A DNA stretch of 35,970 nucleotides, from positions 1-35,970 of the forward strand of contig JAKLDV010000012.1 of the NCBI GenBank assembly GCA_022703335.1, read 5' to 3'. How positions within the stretch are numbered: position 1 is the first letter of the stretch; each line of letters opens with the position of its first letter. The stretch comes from Elusimicrobiota bacterium. GTDB taxonomy: Bacteria; Elusimicrobiota; Elusimicrobia; FEN-1173. Position numbers and translations under genes: made by a program. Of this stretch, positions 5,238 through 35,970 are shown piece by piece. Below the pieces are notes generated by a model. It worked only from the letters and a program-made list of their open reading frames with translations. It ran no database searches and had not been told where the DNA came from.

Positions 5238-6665
5238 TTATTTCGGGGTTTTTGAATGGGACGTTTCGGACGTTTGGAGCACATGAAGATGGGCCGGAGA
5301 TACCAGATTCAAAGACCCCGCTCGTTGGAGCAGCCGGTTCCGCCGATCCTCGCGGATTTCGGGGGTATTCGAGTCGTCTTTTGTCCGCCAGGAGCGCCCG
5401 TAGATATTTCCCTGGGGCGCGATGATGTTCAGTCTCTCCGTCTGATTCGCCACGAGGGCGTAGGGGCTTATCCAGAGGGTGCTGACGGCCCCGAGAGAGT
5501 CAATGTGGTCCCTGTTTTTTTCGAGGAACCGCAACGTCTCGCGAAAATCTTCTTCAGTTTCTCCCGGATAGCCGACGAGCACGTTCAGGGTCACGTGGAT
5601 CCCTGCTTTCTTCAGGTCGCGCAGATTATTCTCCGCGTCGGTCAGGCGATAGCCGCGGCCCATCAGGTCCGTCACCTTTTGGGAGCCGCTTTCCAGACCA
5701 AAGACCAGGTGATGACAGCCCGCCCGGTGCATCAGCCCCAACAAGTCGTAGGACAGGTTCGGATGAAAAACACATTGTCCGGTCCAGGTGAATTTCAACC
5801 GGTGAGAGACGATCATTTCGCAGACTTTTTTCAATTCCGGCAGGTTGGAGCTGACCGAAGGGCTCCGTTCCTCAAAACACCGAACGCGGTGCCGTTCCAG
5901 GCGTTGTTTTATCTCAAAAAAGATGTGTTCGGCCGGCCGGGTTTTTAAGTGCGCGATGTAGCCCGTCAGGGAACAGAAACGACATCGGTGCGCGCATCCG
6001 CGGGTGAACGTGATCCCCAGCCGGCCGTTGTTGAGCGAAAGATCGTAATCGTTGAAATCGGGGATCGGCAGCGCCGAGAACACGGGAGACGGCCGTGGGC
6101 CGCCGTTCCGCATCTTTCCGGATTCCCGCGCATAACAGCCGGGCGCCGGCCGAACCGCCCCGCTTTCTTCGATGGAGCGCAATATCTCAAGGACCGTTTC
6201 CTCCCCCTCGCCGTAGACCACCGCATCGAGGGCCGGCTCGGCGGCGAACGCCTCTCCGGACCAGCGGGGCATGCATTCCGGCCCGCCGAAAATGACGACG
6301 CTGGCGGGATGCCGGGCCTTGATGGTCCGCGCCAGGGCCAGGCTGCTTGTTTTGTTGGAGGCCCACACGGAAAGGCCGAAGACGTTGAAGCCGTCGCGGG
6401 CGAGTTCATCGATGCGGGCGGCGATTTGTGGCAGGTGGTTCCGAAAGAGGTCCGCCCCGAATTTCTCCAGGGCGTCGTCGTCGTAGCCGTCCCAGGGGGA
6501 TGGGGTTTCCGGGGGCCGGGCGTAATACAATTCCCAGTTCAGGTCCAGGACCTTGACCGGATAGGCGGCGTTCTTCAGCACGGCGCCGATGTAGGCCAGG
6601 CCGAGGTCGGGGGGTTGCGGCATGGTGATCGCCGGACAACGGATCAGGCAAACCTTCGGTTTCAT
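5238..6665 (-). CDS. B12-binding-domain radical SAM protein
   Basis: A 475-residue protein with an N-terminal cobalamin-binding-like region (CLIRCPAITMPQPPDLGLAY, later VFGLSVWASNK, VIFGGPECMP and VVYGEGEETVLEIL) followed by a radical SAM core. The 4Fe-4S cluster motif is TRGCAHRCRFCS (CxxxCxxC). Further core motifs are FGLESGSQKV and LVGYPGETEEDF. This architecture is shared by enzymes doing methylations, cyclisations or thiolations, so the substrate cannot be predicted. The first ATG is at 6665. An in-frame TTG at 6686 is possible but has no better signal. It is divergent from the Arg-rich gene at 6729 and ends before a terminator at 5133. It closely resembles the protein at 22153-23667, including a shared WRTKD-x-SN phrase near the C-terminus. 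Confidence 0.88.
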   Translation of the reverse strand: MKPKVCLIRCPAITMPQPPDLGLAYIGAVLKNAAYPVKVLDLNWELYYARPPETPSPWDGYDDDALEKFGADLFRNHLPQIAARIDELARDGFNVFGLSVWASNKTSSLALARTIKARHPASVVIFGGPECMPRWSGEAFAAEPALDAVVYGEGEETVLEILRSIEESGAVRPAPGCYARESGKMRNGGPRPSPVFSALPIPDFNDYDLSLNNGRLGITFTRGCAHRCRFCSLTGYIAHLKTRPAEHIFFEIKQRLERHRVRCFEERSPSVSSNLPELKKVCEMIVSHRLKFTWTGQCVFHPNLSYDLLGLMHRAGCHHLVFGLESGSQKVTDLMGRGYRLTDAENNLRDLKKAGIHVTLNVLVGYPGETEEDFRETLRFLEKNRDHIDSLGAVSTLWISPYALVANQTERLNIIAPQGNIYGRSWRTKDDSNTPEIREDRRNRLLQRAGSLNLVSPAHLHVLQTSETSHSKTPK

Positions 6666-6728
6666 GGGAGAGCTAGAAAATAGCAAATCTAATGTGCTAA
6701 GATGGGACAGAATTTTCGGAGGTTCGAG

Positions 6729-22152: not shown

Positions 22153-23667
22153 ATGAAGATCACCCTGGTGTTGAGTCCCATGTGGTGCCGCGAGGCCCCG
22201 CCGCTCGGCCTGGCGGCCTTGAAGGCCTATCTCCAGGAACAGGGCCACAACGTCCGATGTTTCGATTTCAACAATGAGTTCTGCCTGAGAACGTCGGAGA
22301 AATGGAAACCCTATTGGGGTTCGGAACACGGGACCGCCGTTTGGACGAAGGAGGATTTTGCGGGGACGGTGATCTCGGCCCACGAAGCACTGTTGGACGA
22401 GGCCGTCGGACAGATCGCGGCGCGGGAGGCGAAACTCGTCGGTTTCTCGGTCTATGCCACCAACGCTTTGCTCAGCCTGGAAATGGCGCGTCGGCTGAAG
22501 AAGAAGGCCCCCGATGTCTTTGTCGTTTTCGGCGGCCCGTGGGTCACCCAGGAAAGAGAAAAGGTCCTGAAGCATCCCGCGGTGGACGCCGCCGTCCTCG
22601 GCGAAGGCGAGGGCTCGCTGGCCGAACTGGCGCGTTCCATGGACCAGGGCCGGCCGCTGACGGAGGTCCCGGGGCTCTATCTTCGCGCCGACGGGGACAC
22701 GGGGGTCTCCTTTAAAGCGGGGACGGAGTTGGCCTCCTTGGACGCCCTGCCGTTCCCGGATTTCAGCGATTTCCCGGTCGGCACCTACGACCGGCCGCGC
22801 CGGCTGCTGGCGTATTTCAGCCGCGGCTGTTTCAAGAAATGCGTTTTCTGCGACGTGCCGGTTCATTGGAAAAAATGGCGCTGCCGCTCGGGCCGGCGCG
22901 TCTTTGAGGACCTCCGACACCAGTTGACGCGGTATCCGGACATCCGCGCCATTGAGTTCTGCGAGGCGACCTTGAACTCGGACCTCCGCGCCCTGGAAGA
23001 TTTTTGCGACCTCGTCATCGCGGACAAAAAAAGCGACCGGTCGGCGTTTCGGAGGATATTCTGGTTCGGTTTCGCGCACGTGCGGCCGGAGATGGACCGC
23101 CCGTTTTTGGAAAAGATGGCCCGGGCCGGATGCCACCACCTCCGCCTCGGCATCGAGAGCGGATCTCAAAAGGTCGTGGATTCCATGAAGAAAGGATACC
23201 GTCTGGCCGACGCGGAACGGCTTTTGGCGGACATGCGGTCGGCCGGCATCAAGGCGCTCCTGACGTTCATGGTCGGATTCCCCACGGAGACCGAGGAGGA
23301 TTTTCAGGGGACGCTGGATTTCCTCCGGCGCAACGCCCGCCTCATCGAGCGGGTCACTCCGAACGAGAGCTTCACCGCCATCTTCCCGGGCACGCCGCTG
23401 CATCGGCAGGCCGAATCGTTCGGCGTCGAGTTGGGCGCGCATTCGGATCATTGGCGGACAAAGGACGGGAGCAACGATTTCCATGTCCGCCTGGCGCGGC
23501 ATGAGCGGTTCTGCCGGGAGGCGGCGGCGCTCGGCCTGGCCCTCTCCCCTTCGTCGACCAAAGTCGCCCGCTATCGGGACGATTTTTTGGCGGATTACGA
23601 AGAAACGGCGTCTTCTCATGGGTGGACGGGCCCTCGGGAAGCCGATGAAGAAGATGATCGCAAATAA
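22153..23667 (+). CDS. B12-binding-domain radical SAM protein (paralogue of 5238-6665)
   Basis: A 504-residue protein: an N-terminal B12-binding-like domain (ITLVLSPMWCREAPPLGL, VFVVFGGPWVTQ, AAVLGEGEGSLAEL), then a radical SAM core with SRGCFKKCVFCDVP (CxxxCxxC), LRLGIESGSQKV and FMVGFPTETEEDF. The HWRTKDGSNDFH phrase near the C-terminus also occurs, slightly altered, in the 5238-6665 protein, so the two are related. The ATG at 22153 has no good ribosome binding site, but the first strand starts there. The next gene overlaps the 3' end by 23 bp, so the two are coupled. Substrate unknown. Confidence 0.88.
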   Translation: MKITLVLSPMWCREAPPLGLAALKAYLQEQGHNVRCFDFNNEFCLRTSEKWKPYWGSEHGTAVWTKEDFAGTVISAHEALLDEAVGQIAAREAKLVGFSVYATNALLSLEMARRLKKKAPDVFVVFGGPWVTQEREKVLKHPAVDAAVLGEGEGSLAELARSMDQGRPLTEVPGLYLRADGDTGVSFKAGTELASLDALPFPDFSDFPVGTYDRPRRLLAYFSRGCFKKCVFCDVPVHWKKWRCRSGRRVFEDLRHQLTRYPDIRAIEFCEATLNSDLRALEDFCDLVIADKKSDRSAFRRIFWFGFAHVRPEMDRPFLEKMARAGCHHLRLGIESGSQKVVDSMKKGYRLADAERLLADMRSAGIKALLTFMVGFPTETEEDFQGTLDFLRRNARLIERVTPNESFTAIFPGTPLHRQAESFGVELGAHSDHWRTKDGSNDFHVRLARHERFCREAAALGLALSPSSTKVARYRDDFLADYEETASSHGWTGPREADEEDDRK

Positions 23668-30615: not shown

Positions 30616-31416
30616 TTAGAGGTCGCGCAGGTGTTTTCCGCTCCGGCCGTAACTGACTTTGAGGATTTCCGCCATCACCGACACCGCGATTTCTCCGGGA
30701 GACTTGCCGCTGATGTCCAGTCCGACGGGCGCGTAGACGCGGGGGTCCTTTTCCGGATGGATCCCCTTTTTGTTCAGCTGGGAGATGACCACGGGGACCT
30801 TGCTTTTGGAGCCGATCATGCCGATGTAGGCCGCCTTGGTTTTCAGCGCCGCTTCCAGGCATTCCTTGTCCAGCAGGTGACCCCGGGTCACGATGACCAC
30901 GTAGGTCTTCTCGTCCACCCGGGCGGCGCGCAGGGCCGCGTCCGGGGACTCGACGTGCACCGCCGAGGCTTTAGGGAAGCGCTCCCGGTTCGCGAACTCC
31001 GATCGGTCGTCGGCCACGGCGTAGGGGATCCCCGCGACGGTCGCGAGTTCGGCGATCTTCTGGCCCACGTGCCCGGCGCCGAGGACGAACAGTCGGATCC
31101 GCCCGACGAAGACCTCGATAAATATCTCGTTTTTTCCGGAACATTCCATGCCGAGGCCGTCGGGGGTCAGCGAATACGCCACTTTTTTGTTTCGGCCGGC
31201 GGCCAGGGCCGCGCGGGCCTCTTGGAGGCACGCCGCCTCGAGTTTGCCGCCGCCTACCGTGCCTTCGATCCGGCCGTCGGGGTAGACCAGCATCTTCGAG
31301 CCCGATCCCCGCGGCGTGGATCCGTCGGCCGAAATGACGGTGGCGAGGGCCACGTCCTGCCCGGCCCGGATGGCCTCGTGAAGACTTTTGAACAGCTCGG
31401 CGTCATCCATTTGCAT
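30616..31416 (-). CDS. XdhC/CoxI family protein
   Basis: A 266-residue protein. The N-terminal XdhC/CoxI domain has LATVISADGSTPRGSGSKML, TVGGGKLEAAC and the Cys-bearing GLGMECSGKNEIFIEV. The C-terminal Rossmann domain (XdhC_C) has LFVLGAGHVGQKIAELA. XdhC-type proteins bind molybdenum cofactor, help its sulfuration and insert it into molybdenum hydroxylases. No such hydroxylase is in the window. The ATG at 31416 has AAGGA upstream and overlaps the preceding gene by 14 bp, so it belongs to the transporter operon and is probably its last gene. No strong terminator follows before the dnaE promoter. Confidence 0.9.
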   Translation of the reverse strand: MQMDDAELFKSLHEAIRAGQDVALATVISADGSTPRGSGSKMLVYPDGRIEGTVGGGKLEAACLQEARAALAAGRNKKVAYSLTPDGLGMECSGKNEIFIEVFVGRIRLFVLGAGHVGQKIAELATVAGIPYAVADDRSEFANRERFPKASAVHVESPDAALRAARVDEKTYVVIVTRGHLLDKECLEAALKTKAAYIGMIGSKSKVPVVISQLNKKGIHPEKDPRVYAPVGLDISGKSPGEIAVSVMAEILKVSYGRSGKHLRDL

Positions 31417-32461
31417 GGTCGGTTCCTTTGGCGGCGCGGTCTTCCCACGCGGGAGGCCGCAGAATGGTGTATTGGGAGATTTTAAATTTTTTCGTCACGT
31501 CTTGCACCAGCCCTTCCCGAACGACCAGATACAGGGCCGCGGCGTCGGCGTGGAGGAGGTTTTCCAGGGTCTCCGCGTAACCCTCCCCGGCGAGTTCCAG
31601 CGGGCCGATTTCGTCGACGAAGACGATGGATCCGGCCGCCCGGCGGAGGAGCGACTCTTTGGCGAATTCGAATCCGGATTTGGAAAAACGGAACCCGCCG
31701 TGTTCGTGGATCGGGTCCGAGACCTCGCCGTTGCGGGACGCCAACAGGCGTGTTTCGCCCGAAGCCGCGTCGCGCGCCTCAATGCGAACCCGGCGGCCGG
31801 CTTCGAAGGCGCCGGGAGACAGGACGCCCGCCACCGGCCAGCCCCGTTCCTGGAATTTCTCCGCCAAAGCGGCGGCCAACGTGGTTTTTCCGCTGCCGTG
31901 CGGCCCGGAAATGATATGGACTTCGTTTTGCCGCGCGCCTTCGGCCACGATCATGTTTTCCGCCAGGCGTTCGGCGGCCAGCAGGGACTGCGACAACACC
32001 GCCCGCAGAAATCGGACATAGCCGAACAGCCGTGCCCGGGACGACGGGGCCCGCAACAGAAACACGCCGTGGGTCTGCAGAAAGATGCGCCGCATCACCG
32101 GCAGGATGTTCACCGCCACGCTCAGCGTGAGGGACAACCGTTCGCCGAACGCCCGCCGCAGCACGGGTTTCATCCGTTCGGCGTCGACATTTTCAACGTA
32201 CAGCAGCACGGCGTTGTAGAGGAGGACGGCGCGCAGGAACATCCGTCCGGAGACGAGGAGCATCTCTTGTCGCCGGATGAGGAAAAACGGGAGGAAGGAG
32301 GCGAGGAAGAAGAAAATCCAGAACTTGAGCCGTCTCAGTTCCTTCGCCCGGCCCCAGTTGCCGGCCGTGGCGAGCAGCGCCGCCGGGATAAGCCAGGCCC
32401 AGCTTTTGGAGAAAGCCGTTCCGAGCAGGGCCAATGCGAAAAATATTTTAAGGTTCGGCAT
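31403..32461 (-). CDS. Fusion of an EcfT-like membrane domain with a THEP1-type NTPase
   Basis: A 352-residue two-part protein. Residues 1-175 are a small membrane domain with about four helices and a cytoplasmic coupling-like part (LSLTLSVAVNILPVMRRIF) that resembles EcfT/CbiQ, the energy-coupling subunit of ECF transporters, though smaller. Residues 180-352 form a THEP1/NTPase_1 domain with the P-loop HIISGPHGSGKTTLAAAL (about 182-199) and the hallmark Walker B IVFVDEIGPLELAG (about 279-292). THEP1 proteins hydrolyse nucleoside triphosphates and are of unclear role. The first ATG for the conserved part is 32461, overlapping the S-component gene by 14 bp. The membrane assignment is less certain than the NTPase. 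Confidence 0.8.
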   Translation of the reverse strand: MPNLKIFFALALLGTAFSKSWAWLIPAALLATAGNWGRAKELRRLKFWIFFFLASFLPFFLIRRQEMLLVSGRMFLRAVLLYNAVLLYVENVDAERMKPVLRRAFGERLSLTLSVAVNILPVMRRIFLQTHGVFLLRAPSSRARLFGYVRFLRAVLSQSLLAAERLAENMIVAEGARQNEVHIISGPHGSGKTTLAAALAEKFQERGWPVAGVLSPGAFEAGRRVRIEARDAASGETRLLASRNGEVSDPIHEHGGFRFSKSGFEFAKESLLRRAAGSIVFVDEIGPLELAGEGYAETLENLLHADAAALYLVVREGLVQDVTKKFKISQYTILRPPAWEDRAAKGTDHANG

Positions 32462-33044
32462 GTCGGTTTTTTCGCAGGGATCGGCCGAGGAGCCAACCGG
32501 TCGTCCCCGCCACCGCTCCCAAAAAGGCGTGGGCGGCCGCCAATCCGAGGAGCAGGACGGTGACACTTTTCACCGGCACGCCCAGCCAGGCGCTCCCGGT
32601 GCGCGTCATTTCATCAAAGATTACCGCCAGGCCCTCCCCGAACAAGGCCCCGTAGATGAAAATCCTCTGCCCCATCGGCCAAAGACACGCCCAGATGCCG
32701 CCGAGCAGGCAGCCCGGGAGCGTGTACCCCAAAATCAGCACGCCCGCCTGCAGGAGGGCCGCCTCCGCGAGGATGGAGAGCAGAATGTTTATCTTTAGAA
32801 CCCCCATGGCCGCGGTTTTAACCGCCACCGCCACGACCCCCATCCCCAGGAGCGGCAATCCCCGGCGGGCCGGCATTCGGAGCGCGCCGGCAAGAACGAT
32901 CACCGTTCCGACGGCCGTGAGCAGGGTGCCTTTCAAAGGCAGGCCGACGGCGTGAAGTATCGTGCCCAGTGTGGCTTCCACGGCGCCCCAAAGGACGCCG
33001 AAGACCGCCACATAGGCGACCGTGTAGTAATCGTCGCGGTTCAT
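32448..33044 (-). CDS. ECF transporter S-component-like membrane protein, substrate unknown
   Basis: A 198-residue membrane protein with about six hydrophobic segments, the size of an ECF substrate-binding S component. The N-terminal VAVFGVLWGAVEATLGTILH (residues 12-31), with conserved Trp-Gly and Glu, recalls a widespread uncharacterised S-component-like family (consensus about LWGxxExxLGxxLH). The role is mainly inferred from its place between the ATPase gene (4-bp overlap, ATGA) and the EcfT-like gene (14-bp overlap). None of the known specificity signatures (biotin, riboflavin, folate, thiamin, cobalt) is recognisable. Confidence 0.68.
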   Translation of the reverse strand: MNRDDYYTVAYVAVFGVLWGAVEATLGTILHAVGLPLKGTLLTAVGTVIVLAGALRMPARRGLPLLGMGVVAVAVKTAAMGVLKINILLSILAEAALLQAGVLILGYTLPGCLLGGIWACLWPMGQRIFIYGALFGEGLAVIFDEMTRTGSAWLGVPVKSVTVLLLGLAAAHAFLGAVAGTTGWLLGRSLRKNRHAEP

Positions 33045-34381
33045 AGGGAAACAACCCCGTCCGCCCAATGTTTCAAAAGGTCCTGTTCGTGCGACGCCAG
33101 GACGACCGCGCATCCGCGTTCTCTTTCTTTCCGCAACACCCGCGCAAAGAGCCGAAGATTGTTGCGGTCCATCCCGTAGGTGGGCTCGTCCAACAAAAGA
33201 AGTTGTGGTCGGCCCGTCAGGGCCGCGGCCAGGGCCAGGCGTTGCTGTTCCCCATAACTGAGGGAATGGATCGGCCGGTTTCGCCGGGCGGTCAGATGAA
33301 ATTCGTCCAGGAGTTCCGCCGCCGCGTCCGCGTTTTCGGGGTGAATTGAAAATCCCAGCTCCTTCTCCGGCGTGTCCGTGAAGAACTGGTTCAGCGGTTC
33401 CTGGGTCACGAAGGAGACAATTCCTCGCCGGGCGTCGAAGGTTTTCCAGATTCGTCCCCGCCAAAGGATATTTCCGGCGCGCGGGGGCTGAAACCCGGCC
33501 AGGAAGTTGAGGAGGGTTGTTTTGCCGCACCCGTTCGGCCCCGAGATCCCCAGAATCTCCCCGGCATGGATCTGGAGGTTCAGCGGCCGGTCTTTAGTCG
33601 AGGCGATGCCGGGATCCGCGAGGCCGCGCAGTTCCAGGGCGGGGTCTGCCGGGACGCGCGGGGCACGGTCGGTCCCGGCGGCCATGTCCGGCCGCAGGAA
33701 CTGTTCGGCGGCGCTCTTGGACACCGCGGAGAGTTTTCCGTCCGCCAAACGGACGACGGCGTCGGCCGAGTCCAGGAGTTCCGGCGAGTGTTCCACCGCG
33801 AGCACCGCGCCGCCGCATCCCACAAAGTCGGCCAAAAGGCGCCTGAACCAGTCCCGCCGCGCCGCCGACAAATTCACCATCACCTCGTCCAGGACAAGAA
33901 GGTGTGGGTTCTGATGCAGCGACCGCGCCAGGACGACCATGGTTTTTTCGCCCTGCGACAGTTCCGCGCACCGCCGGCCGGCCAGGGAGGCCAGTTCCAG
34001 CGGTTCCAGAAAAGCCGCCGCGTTTTCCACGCGGGAGAACCCCAGTTCTTCGTGGACGAAATTGCGGAAAAGTTGGAGGCCGGGATTCTGCGCCACCCAG
34101 CCGACGCGCAAGCCGGGAAAACGGTCCAGAAATCCGTCCGTTTTCCAGCCGGCGCCCGTCGGCAGGAGGTGGAGGATGGCCCGCAGGAGCGTGGTTTTTC
34201 CGGCCCCGGACGATCCCAGGAGCGCCGTGAAGCGGCCGGGGACGATCTGCAAAGAAACGGAGTTCAAAATGTGATGTCCGTCCGGCGCCTGGACGCTGAA
34301 GGAGTCCAGGGAGACGATCCAGCGGAATTTTTCTGAAACGGCGGCGGCGCCGGCGGTCTTTTCCTGAAACGGCGCCGTCAT
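33041..34381 (-). CDS. Fused double ABC ATPase of ECF type
   Basis: A 446-residue protein with two complete ABC ATPase domains in one chain, corresponding to fused EcfA and EcfA'. First domain: Walker A LLGSSGAGKTTLL (56-63 core), signature LSQGEK (141-146), Walker B LLVLDE (161-166) and switch His 198. Second domain: Walker A GPNGCGKTTLL (281-291), signature LSYGEQ (374-379), Walker B LLLLDEP (394-400) and His 431. Two signature motifs suggest both sites may be active. The first D-loop is atypical (LDEVMVNLSAARRD). It powers a transporter of the inner membrane. The ATG at 34381 overlaps the TsaA-like stop (ATGA). The frame is open further upstream but overlaps the TsaA-like gene. Confidence 0.93.
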   Translation of the reverse strand: MTAPFQEKTAGAAAVSEKFRWIVSLDSFSVQAPDGHHILNSVSLQIVPGRFTALLGSSGAGKTTLLRAILHLLPTGAGWKTDGFLDRFPGLRVGWVAQNPGLQLFRNFVHEELGFSRVENAAAFLEPLELASLAGRRCAELSQGEKTMVVLARSLHQNPHLLVLDEVMVNLSAARRDWFRRLLADFVGCGGAVLAVEHSPELLDSADAVVRLADGKLSAVSKSAAEQFLRPDMAAGTDRAPRVPADPALELRGLADPGIASTKDRPLNLQIHAGEILGISGPNGCGKTTLLNFLAGFQPPRAGNILWRGRIWKTFDARRGIVSFVTQEPLNQFFTDTPEKELGFSIHPENADAAAELLDEFHLTARRNRPIHSLSYGEQQRLALAAALTGRPQLLLLDEPTYGMDRNNLRLFARVLRKERERGCAVVLASHEQDLLKHWADGVVSL

Positions 34382-34806
34382 GGGTTCCTCGAAAACGGAC
34401 GTTTTTCCCCAAAGACCAGGATGTCGTCCTTGGCGCTTTTGATGTCGAGCACGGGAGTGCCGTCGATGGCGTCGAGCCCTTGCACGCGCAGGACGCCGCC
34501 GCGGCAACTCAGCAGTTTCACGCGCGTCATGGCCAGGGGATTGGGCCGGTCCGGGGAATGCGTGGAAAAGACCCCGCGCAACTTTTTGTCTTTCGGAAAT
34601 CGCCGTCGCCTTGCCCGCAGGACGTCCCGGTCCGCTTTGTGGAAATAACACAGGACCCAAAGGGAAGGAGACGCCGTAATGCGATAAAGGGCTTTTCGGA
34701 ACTTTCGGCGAAGGACGATTTCCGCCGTCGTTCCCTGGTTCGGCATGTGCCGGCGTGTTTTGACGGCGGAGCGGACGCTCCCGATGGGCTCCAGAATGAC
34801 CCGCAC
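34378..34806 (-). CDS. TsaA/TrmO-like domain protein
   Basis: A 142-residue protein of the TsaA (UPF0066) family, whose best-known member TrmO is a SAM-dependent N6-methyltransferase acting on t6A37 of tRNA. The core GVFSTHSPDRPNPLAMTRVK (canonical ATRSPxRPNPIGLS) and GLDAIDGTPVLDIKSAK are diagnostic. The HSP and LAM variations and the short length (TrmO is usually about 230 residues) suggest a non-tRNA role, in keeping with its place in a transporter operon. It starts at a GTG (34806) directly after the receptor stop (TAA). No ATG precedes the conserved region. Confidence 0.85.
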   Translation of the reverse strand: MRVILEPIGSVRSAVKTRRHMPNQGTTAEIVLRRKFRKALYRITASPSLWVLCYFHKADRDVLRARRRRFPKDKKLRGVFSTHSPDRPNPLAMTRVKLLSCRGGVLRVQGLDAIDGTPVLDIKSAKDDILVFGEKRPFSRNP

Positions 34807-35970
34807 TTAAAAAGTCATTTCCAGTCCCGTCAGATAGGTCCTTCCGGGCATGGGATCGTAGAAGTTCAGCGCATATTCCTGGTCGGTGATGTTGTTGAAG
34901 CGAAGATAATAGGTGAAGTGGCGGGCAAAGGTCCATCCGCCGCTCCAATGATACACCGTGTAGGCGGCCCGTTTTCCGGTAAAGTTGTCCAGGGTGTACC
35001 GCCCGCCGGCGTGCGTCATGTCGACCGTGGTCGAGAAGCGGCCGTCCCGGTAGGTCAGACTGGACTGTGCGGTGTTCTTGTCCGTGTGGAAGGTGAGCGT
35101 GCCCGGGTCCAGGTAGGAGTACCCCGCGCCCGCCTCGAAATGCGACAGGAAGGCGTAGCGCGCCCGGACCTCCACGCCGCGATAGGCCGATTTGCCGTCC
35201 ACGTTGCGGTACTGTTTTTGCACTGCGGCGCCCTGATAGGTCAGCGGCGCGACGGGGACCTGGGAGACGATCATGTCGGTCTCCACGTTCTTGTACGCCG
35301 AGAGGTCGATCCCGCCCGCTTTTTTAGAATAGCTTAATCCGATCTCGTGCTGGCGGTTCTTATCCGGGCGGAGGTGGGCGTTGCCGAACGCCCGGGTGTT
35401 GGTGGAATACAGCTCGGTCACCGTCGGCGCGCGGAAGCCGTAGTTGAGGTTGGCACGGGCGCGCAGGTCCGGCAGGATCTTCCACACGACGCCGTATTTC
35501 GGGGTCCACTGGTCCGTGAACTTGGAGTTGTTGTCGTAGCGGACACCGGCCAGGAATATGAAACGCTCATGCCAGACGGGGAGGGACAGTTGAATGAACG
35601 GCGCCACGTACTGCTGCGTTGCGCGCGAACTCGGCGAACCGGATCGGATGTGGGAATCCTCGTAGTCCGTGCCGAAAAAGAGTTCCGCGCGCAGCGGCAA
35701 CTCCCCCTGCCACTCGAGGCTGCCGCCCTGCGTGCTGGCCCGGGACAACGGCGAGCTGGCGGACCGGTCACGGTCGGTCGTCAGGAAAGTTCGGACATAA
35801 AAGCGCGACCGGCCGAAAGTCCTCTGCCAGGTCACATAGGAGTTCGTGATCTCCTCCTCGATGTCCTTGTCGATGCCCGTGAACGCCCCCGCGTTGGTTG
35901 AGAAGACGGCTTCATTCCGTTTCGTGTTGAAGTTGCGGTGATTCAGGGTGAGCGTGTCCCGATCCCCGGC
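34807..35970 (-). CDS. TonB-dependent outer-membrane receptor, C-terminal part (runs off the right edge)
   Basis: The frame is open from the right edge to a TAA at 34807, giving about 387 residues of a beta-barrel. Alternating aromatic/polar strands are clear, with ANLNYGFRAPTVTELYSTN and LRPDKNRQHEIGLSY (both typical of TonB receptors such as BtuB or siderophore receptors), RFNNITDQEYALNFYDPMPG, and the terminal Phe (GLEMTF) recognised by the BAM machinery. The plug domain and TonB box lie outside the window. It is the first visible gene of the operon and should import its ligand across the outer membrane. The ligand is unknown; similarity of style to BtuB is only suggestive. Confidence 0.9.
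   Translation of the reverse strand, partial: AGDRDTLTLNHRNFNTKRNEAVFSTNAGAFTGIDKDIEEEITNSYVTWQRTFGRSRFYVRTFLTTDRDRSASSPLSRASTQGGSLEWQGELPLRAELFFGTDYEDSHIRSGSPSSRATQQYVAPFIQLSLPVWHERFIFLAGVRYDNNSKFTDQWTPKYGVVWKILPDLRARANLNYGFRAPTVTELYSTNTRAFGNAHLRPDKNRQHEIGLSYSKKAGGIDLSAYKNVETDMIVSQVPVAPLTYQGAAVQKQYRNVDGKSAYRGVEVRARYAFLSHFEAGAGYSYLDPGTLTFHTDKNTAQSSLTYRDGRFSTTVDMTHAGGRYTLDNFTGKRAAYTVYHWSGGWTFARHFTYYLRFNNITDQEYALNFYDPMPGRTYLTGLEMTF

Follow-up and report, generated by a model that had tools for sequence, protein, structure and literature searches.

The six minus-strand genes at positions 30616-35970 of the window—the whole contig analysed here, 35970 bp in length—probably encode an importer that salvages the molybdenum cofactor (Moco), taken up as Mo-molybdopterin or its nucleotide form across both membranes. 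Three independent lines point to Moco as the substrate, i.e. the co-occurrence with molybdenum hydroxylases, the missing Moco synthesis, and the Moco riboswitch together with the gene neighbours of the homologous loci. The host is an Elusimicrobiota metagenome-assembled genome (G000) of 2.66 Mb in 268 contigs, 96% complete. The genes are as follows:

30616..31416, minus strand: molybdenum-hydroxylase maturation factor of the XdhC/CoxI family (Pfam XdhC_CoxI 89 bits, XdhC_C 139 bits)
31403..32461, minus strand: fusion of an EcfT-like membrane domain (about residues 1-178) and a THEP1-type NTPase (NTPase_1 67 bits)
32448..33044, minus strand: ECF S component, 198 aa, putative Moco-binding subunit (predicted fold and homologues)
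33041..34381, minus strand: fused double ABC ATPase of the EcfA-A' type (Pfam ABC_tran in two stretches, 182 bits)
34378..34806, minus strand: TrmO/TsaA-like protein (TrmO_N 84.7 bits, TIGR00104 101 bits, both over the cut-off)
34807..35970, minus strand: C-terminal 387 aa of a TonB-dependent receptor truncated at the contig end (TonB_dep_Rec_b-barrel 141 bits)

All six genes, described in the sequence-only reading as consecutive and abutting or overlapping, were confirmed as real and tightly packed, with Pfam support for the receptor, the TrmO-like protein, the ABC ATPase, THEP1 and XdhC. The receptor gene abuts that of the TrmO-like protein, which starts with GTG and overlaps the ABC gene by 4 bp; the ABC and S genes also share 4 bp, and the overlaps between S and EcfT-THEP1 and between EcfT-THEP1 and XdhC are 14 bp each, all junctions thus being abutting or overlapping by 4-14 bp. 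The operon is not a product of chance, because the gene order recurs in other phyla. As for the receptor, its barrel domain was found as expected, but the N-terminal part is missing, the contig ending inside the gene, so that the region of the plug domain falls beyond the contig end. In the nearest relative with the operon (G005, rated 100% complete) the receptor homologue is intact, with 625 aa covering both the plug domain and the barrel; the homologue from locus L042 is full-length and 70% identical to the window receptor, and a plug domain is also present in that from L064.

Concerning the S component, its sequence has no match of its own in Pfam, NCBIfam or PDB in sequence searches. Its structure predicted by AlphaFold from 23 sequences (pLDDT 93.1), however, has one convincing fold match in PDB by Foldseek—the ECF S component YkoE (5edl; TM 0.58, probability 1.00, E 0.012)—and its homologues match PF09819 and PF09605, the former over the cut-off in the homologue from L071. 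The residues E23, G27, P36, G39 and K76 are invariant in the alignment of the S sequences, and H31 and E94 nearly so. The protein, as judged from the predicted model, is a member of the ECF S-component fold class; the relationship proposed from the sequence was thus borne out where a fold unrelated to ECF S proteins would have spoken against it. The fused double ECF-type ATPase was likewise recognized correctly, with Walker A, signature and Walker B motifs complete in both halves. The T half of the window fusion is degenerate, without a direct family match and with a model of modest confidence; the T family profile matches EcfT 5d3m weakly (E 0.014), and stand-alone T homologues from Chloroflexi and WOR-3 (L071, L075 and L064) score over the CbiQ cut-off. 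The NTPase half exhibits an intact P-loop and a DExGxxE motif in the alignment, and its fold matches THEP1 (1ye8) and the human NTPase 2i3b. In many Elusimicrobiota, S, T and THEP1 form one chain with no adjoining ABC gene.

With regard to the two remaining proteins, the TrmO-like one carries the motif SPDRPNP, and the window XdhC is the only XdhC found in its own genome, its score against the best NCBIfam model, NF045664, being below the cut-off of that model.

Among relatives of the same class, S is present in 31 of 147 genomes, on which single-sequence and profile searches agree. In named genomes it was located in 24 loci from Elusimicrobia, WOR-3, Neomarinimicrobiota, Sumerlaeota, Deltaproteobacteria/Myxococcales and Chloroflexi. 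It should be noted that the gene calls in the compared loci come from a simple script and are approximate, with several neighbours named from reading their translations. The gene order recurs across the phyla, as the sequence-only reading had proposed to look for, its core being A-S-T with THEP1; in diderms S often stands together with ABC, EcfT, THEP1 and the TonB receptor. The receptor flanks the module in the window, L042, L063, L064, L065, L068, L070, L084, L033 and L035, and also in L073 and L076, where it was named by reading translations; the Chloroflexi loci are without it. The TrmO-like gene accompanies the module in the window, L042, L063, L051, L057 and L058. The grouping of both the receptor and XdhC with the transporter, on which the earlier proposal relied, therefore held in part, the receptor recurring in many diderm operons but XdhC standing beside few. 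The latter is not a core part, since it adjoins the module directly in just three cases (the window, G005 and the divergent L041) and stands near it in L063, L051 and L057; for the most part, such adjacency is confined to the taxonomic order of the host.

The linkage to molybdenum enzymes—a co-occurrence suggested in the sequence-only reading—is pronounced. A molybdenum hydroxylase (PF20256) was found in 30 of the 31 S-bearing relatives versus 38 of the 116 relatives without S (p 2e-11), the single exception among the former being a 62%-complete metagenome-assembled genome. It is also present in 21 of the 22 S-bearing genomes of the collection, and the window genome contains three hydroxylase genes in intact complexes. 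Searches for MoaC, MoaE, MoeA and ModA in the window genome, and for MoaC, MoeA and ModA in G005, found none of them; in the latter genome an orphan MoaE-like gene remains next to folE. Loss of synthesis was judged by MoaC and MoeA in the class relatives and by MoaC in the other phyla, and of the molybdate or tungstate transporters the searches covered ModA and, in the window genome, ModB. Both MoaC and MoeA are absent from 14 of the 30 hydroxylase-bearing relatives with S—about half—in comparison with 4 of the 38 without it (p 0.0018); at a completeness of at least 90% the p-value is 0.0045, and permutation of S within families gave 0.012. Kinship among the genomes weakens the simple p-values, an effect partly countered by the permutation within families and by the occurrence in several phyla. 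In the four relatives that carry a hydroxylase and lack MoaC and MoeA as well as S, two of them less than 80% complete, S was not found by the profile search either. Salvage is not obligatory for all carriers, since about half of the S-bearing relatives keep both MoaC and MoeA.

A similar picture was seen in the collection, where MoaC is present in 7 and absent from 15 of the 22 S-bearing genomes, 14 of these 15 having the hydroxylase. The MoaC-less carriers include a member of Neomarinimicrobiota (G163) deposited as one chromosome (CP070656.1), which contradicts an assembly artefact as the cause of the missing gene; such an artefact was also rejected in view of the repeated absence in G005, G092, G052 and G125, all rated 99-100% complete.

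The third line comes from RNA elements and neighbouring genes. The Moco riboswitch (RF01055) lies directly upstream of A-S-T-THEP1-receptor in two WOR-3 loci, L064 and L065 (91.5 and 83.8 bits, respectively, at a cut-off of 36), and directly upstream of the receptor in L070 from Neomarinimicrobiota, and in the deltaproteobacterial L084 it heads the cluster moaA-moaC-MOSC-mobB-S-T/THEP1-receptor. The genomes G148, G149, G154 and G167 gave no other hit to this riboswitch. Upstream riboswitches, which the sequence-only reading had proposed to look for, were seen at these four loci, but none was found at the window or G005 locus, the 5' end of the window operon being missing. In L050 (genome G020), an operon MoeA-MoaA-MoaC-MOSC/MoCF ends with S-T-THEP1, beside which a ModAB-like binding protein and permease are encoded. 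Genes for MobA-like and XDH proteins adjoin S in L080, those for XDH, XdhC and a MobA-like protein follow just downstream of the S module in L063, and a NapA-like enzyme, instead of XDH, is encoded near S in L067.

For the substrate, the direction and every step of the transport, we infer the following scheme. The TonB receptor would carry the cofactor through the outer membrane, and the S component would bind it in the inner membrane, from where its delivery into the cytoplasm would be driven by the fused ABC ATPases together with the EcfT domain, the passage through both membranes being modelled on what is known of these families. XdhC would then presumably receive the cofactor and hand it over to enzymes of the xanthine-dehydrogenase type; as companions, the NTPase domain of the THEP1 type and the TrmO-like protein may perhaps act in its processing or release. 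The single import route across both membranes and the ECF-type nature of the inner-membrane parts, both already suspected from the sequence, are supported. In the single-chain S-T-THEP1 form, the THEP1 NTPase might itself power or gate the import, which we consider quite unlikely; no paper joining THEP1 with ECF transporters was found in the literature search.

The main rival to Moco import is a transporter of molybdate, tungstate or a Mo/W chelate replacing ModABC, TupABC or WtpABC, which seems unlikely. It would accord with the general molybdenum linkage of the S loci and with the lack of ModA over the cut-off in 30 of the 31 S-bearing relatives, although ModA is rare in the relatives without S, too. 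In its favour, Moco riboswitches are also known to control metal transporters. ModB, none of which was over the cut-off in the window genome, is uninformative there, as other permeases match below the cut-off. Metal import alone would, however, bring no benefit where MoaC and MoeA are missing, because such genomes cannot build the cofactor, and in L050 the S-T-THEP1 module occurs alongside a ModAB-like pair of its own. Import of a precursor—metal-free molybdopterin or cPMP—to be finished inside by unrecognized enzymes is distinctly improbable: it shares the genomic linkage with Moco, the orphan MoaE-like gene of G005 would suit it, and THEP1 and the TrmO-like protein could be the processing enzymes, but the window genome has neither MoaE nor MoeA, needed in the known route to finish cPMP and insert Mo.

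The genes of purine catabolism (adenosine deaminase, OHCU decarboxylase, HIU hydrolase) seen around S in L038, L040, L043 and L047, partly identified by reading translations, would fit an importer of purines or nucleobases feeding xanthine dehydrogenase. Such an importer is very improbable, since control by a Moco riboswitch is not expected for one; the position of S inside the Moco-synthesis operons of L050 and L084 and the NapA-like neighbour in L067 also speak against it, and the missing synthesis would be left unexplained. Purine as the common substrate was rejected on the grounds of the riboswitches, the Moco-synthesis linkage and L067. There is equally little probability that the operon has no role in molybdenum metabolism, serving e.g. 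the uptake of heme, siderophores or corrinoids with merely incidental associations. The partial window receptor does give its top NCBIfam scores with heme/hemoglobin and B12 receptor models, but all are far below the cut-off (for the BtuB equivalog 74 bits at a cut-off of 599.7, scored on the receptor cut by the contig end), and the three molybdenum lines are independent of each other. A corrinoid substrate was rejected as the receptor is far below the B12 models and no B12 riboswitch occurs at the loci scanned. The sequence-only reading had correctly seen a link to a metal- or pterin-type cofactor, now supported by the riboswitch, the hydroxylases and the missing synthesis, while leaving open molybdenum, tungsten, another metal or a corrinoid; the molybdenum side now points to Moco itself, and the corrinoid has dropped out. 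The lability of free Moco (PMC9370521) counts against the reading, as regards the source and form in which cells would meet the cofactor outside.

Several known systems resemble the operon in part. With the ECF importers (CbiMNQO, EcfAA'T with S, YkoE) it shares the S fold, two ABC halves and a T component probably of the EcfT/CbiQ type; unlike in them, both ATPases form a single polypeptide, T is joined to THEP1 and a TonB receptor is encoded in the operon, the predicted substrate differs, and the window S has no sequence match to any named S family. It would work like the salvage of B12 without belonging to the B12 families: BtuB with inner-membrane B12 uptake likewise combines a TonB receptor and a cofactor transporter under a cofactor riboswitch, as the operon does in relatives, and serves salvage by auxotrophs, whereas here the riboswitch is that of Moco, the linkage is to molybdenum enzymes, an ECF module stands for BtuCDF and the receptor is not BtuB by score. 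ModABC, TupABC and WtpABC also supply molybdenum or tungsten enzymes; the operon, in contrast, is without a binding protein or ModB-type permease and is also present in genomes that seem unable to build the cofactor. The P-loop, the Walker B motif and the fold are common to the THEP1/NTPCR NTPases and DUF2478, but the window NTPase is fused to an EcfT domain and that of the relatives to S-T in one chain. Both domains of XdhC are kept, the difference being its gene within a transporter operon. The dietary uptake by Caenorhabditis elegans also involves pre-formed Moco from other organisms, although in an animal and by an unknown transporter (PMC9793310), whereas the operon is bacterial.

According to PMC9793310, uptake of exogenous Moco had been neither examined nor observed outside C. 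elegans; our literature search found no paper on Moco import in bacteria, and a 2024 review on TonB does not mention molybdenum (PMC11658791). The accessible part of a genome survey describes 305 bacteria with Moco-dependent enzymes but no Moco pathway, whose 'orphan molybdoproteins' were left unexplained; most of these bacteria are without known Mo transporters, and that part considers biosynthetic components yet to be recognized, or forms that do without Mo, and does not propose import (PMC6147048). If the operon is indeed a Moco importer, it would be the first candidate bacterial transporter of the cofactor, uptake being reported only from C. elegans (PMC9793310), and would explain cases such as these orphan molybdoproteins (PMC6147048). 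Import powered or gated by THEP1, if true, would go beyond this and mean that an ECF-like transporter is energised in a new way. With the operon, defined proteins are at hand for tests of binding and rescue, and Moco, if imported in this way, would become a shared good in microbial communities.

The arrangement of the S component, the EcfT-like protein (T) and THEP1 varies among the loci, a single-chain fusion of all three, about 555 aa long, being encoded at L050:9693-11360, L055:9192-10892 and similar loci, with no ABC ATPase gene beside the fused genes. In a Neomarinimicrobiota operon, a second, diverged S-like gene (L070:9426-10007) immediately precedes the S gene. The S or S-T genes of L038, L040, L043 and L047 are surrounded by purine-degradation genes, i.e. 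those for adenosine deaminase, OHCU decarboxylase, HIU hydrolase and XDH.

Concerning the Moco-related genes, an orphan MoaE-like gene adjoins folE (contig C44, L091:6013-6465) in G005, the nearest relative carrying the operon, whose genome lacks MoaC and MoeA. MoaE is also found in the family members G001, G003 and G004, all without MoaC, MoeA and molybdenum hydroxylases. The window genome contains a cluster (contig C216, L086:987-14174) of YgfK-like and SsnA-like genes with two molybdenum hydroxylase complexes, and is similar to the selenium-dependent hydroxylase gene set of E. coli and others. Two B12-binding radical SAM proteins are encoded in the window outside the operon (5238-6686 and 22153-23667).

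Deltaproteobacterial operons share a conserved small secreted protein, its gene being located between T/THEP1 and the TonB receptor:

L073:11727-12239, small secreted protein gene
L076:11193-11681, small secreted protein gene
L084:8316-9494, small secreted protein gene

Just upstream of the S locus in L076, a single protein (L076:7420-8910) has an HTH of the excisionase type joined to a PBP_like domain and to a DUF2478/THEP1-like NTPase; it is possibly a molybdenum regulator.
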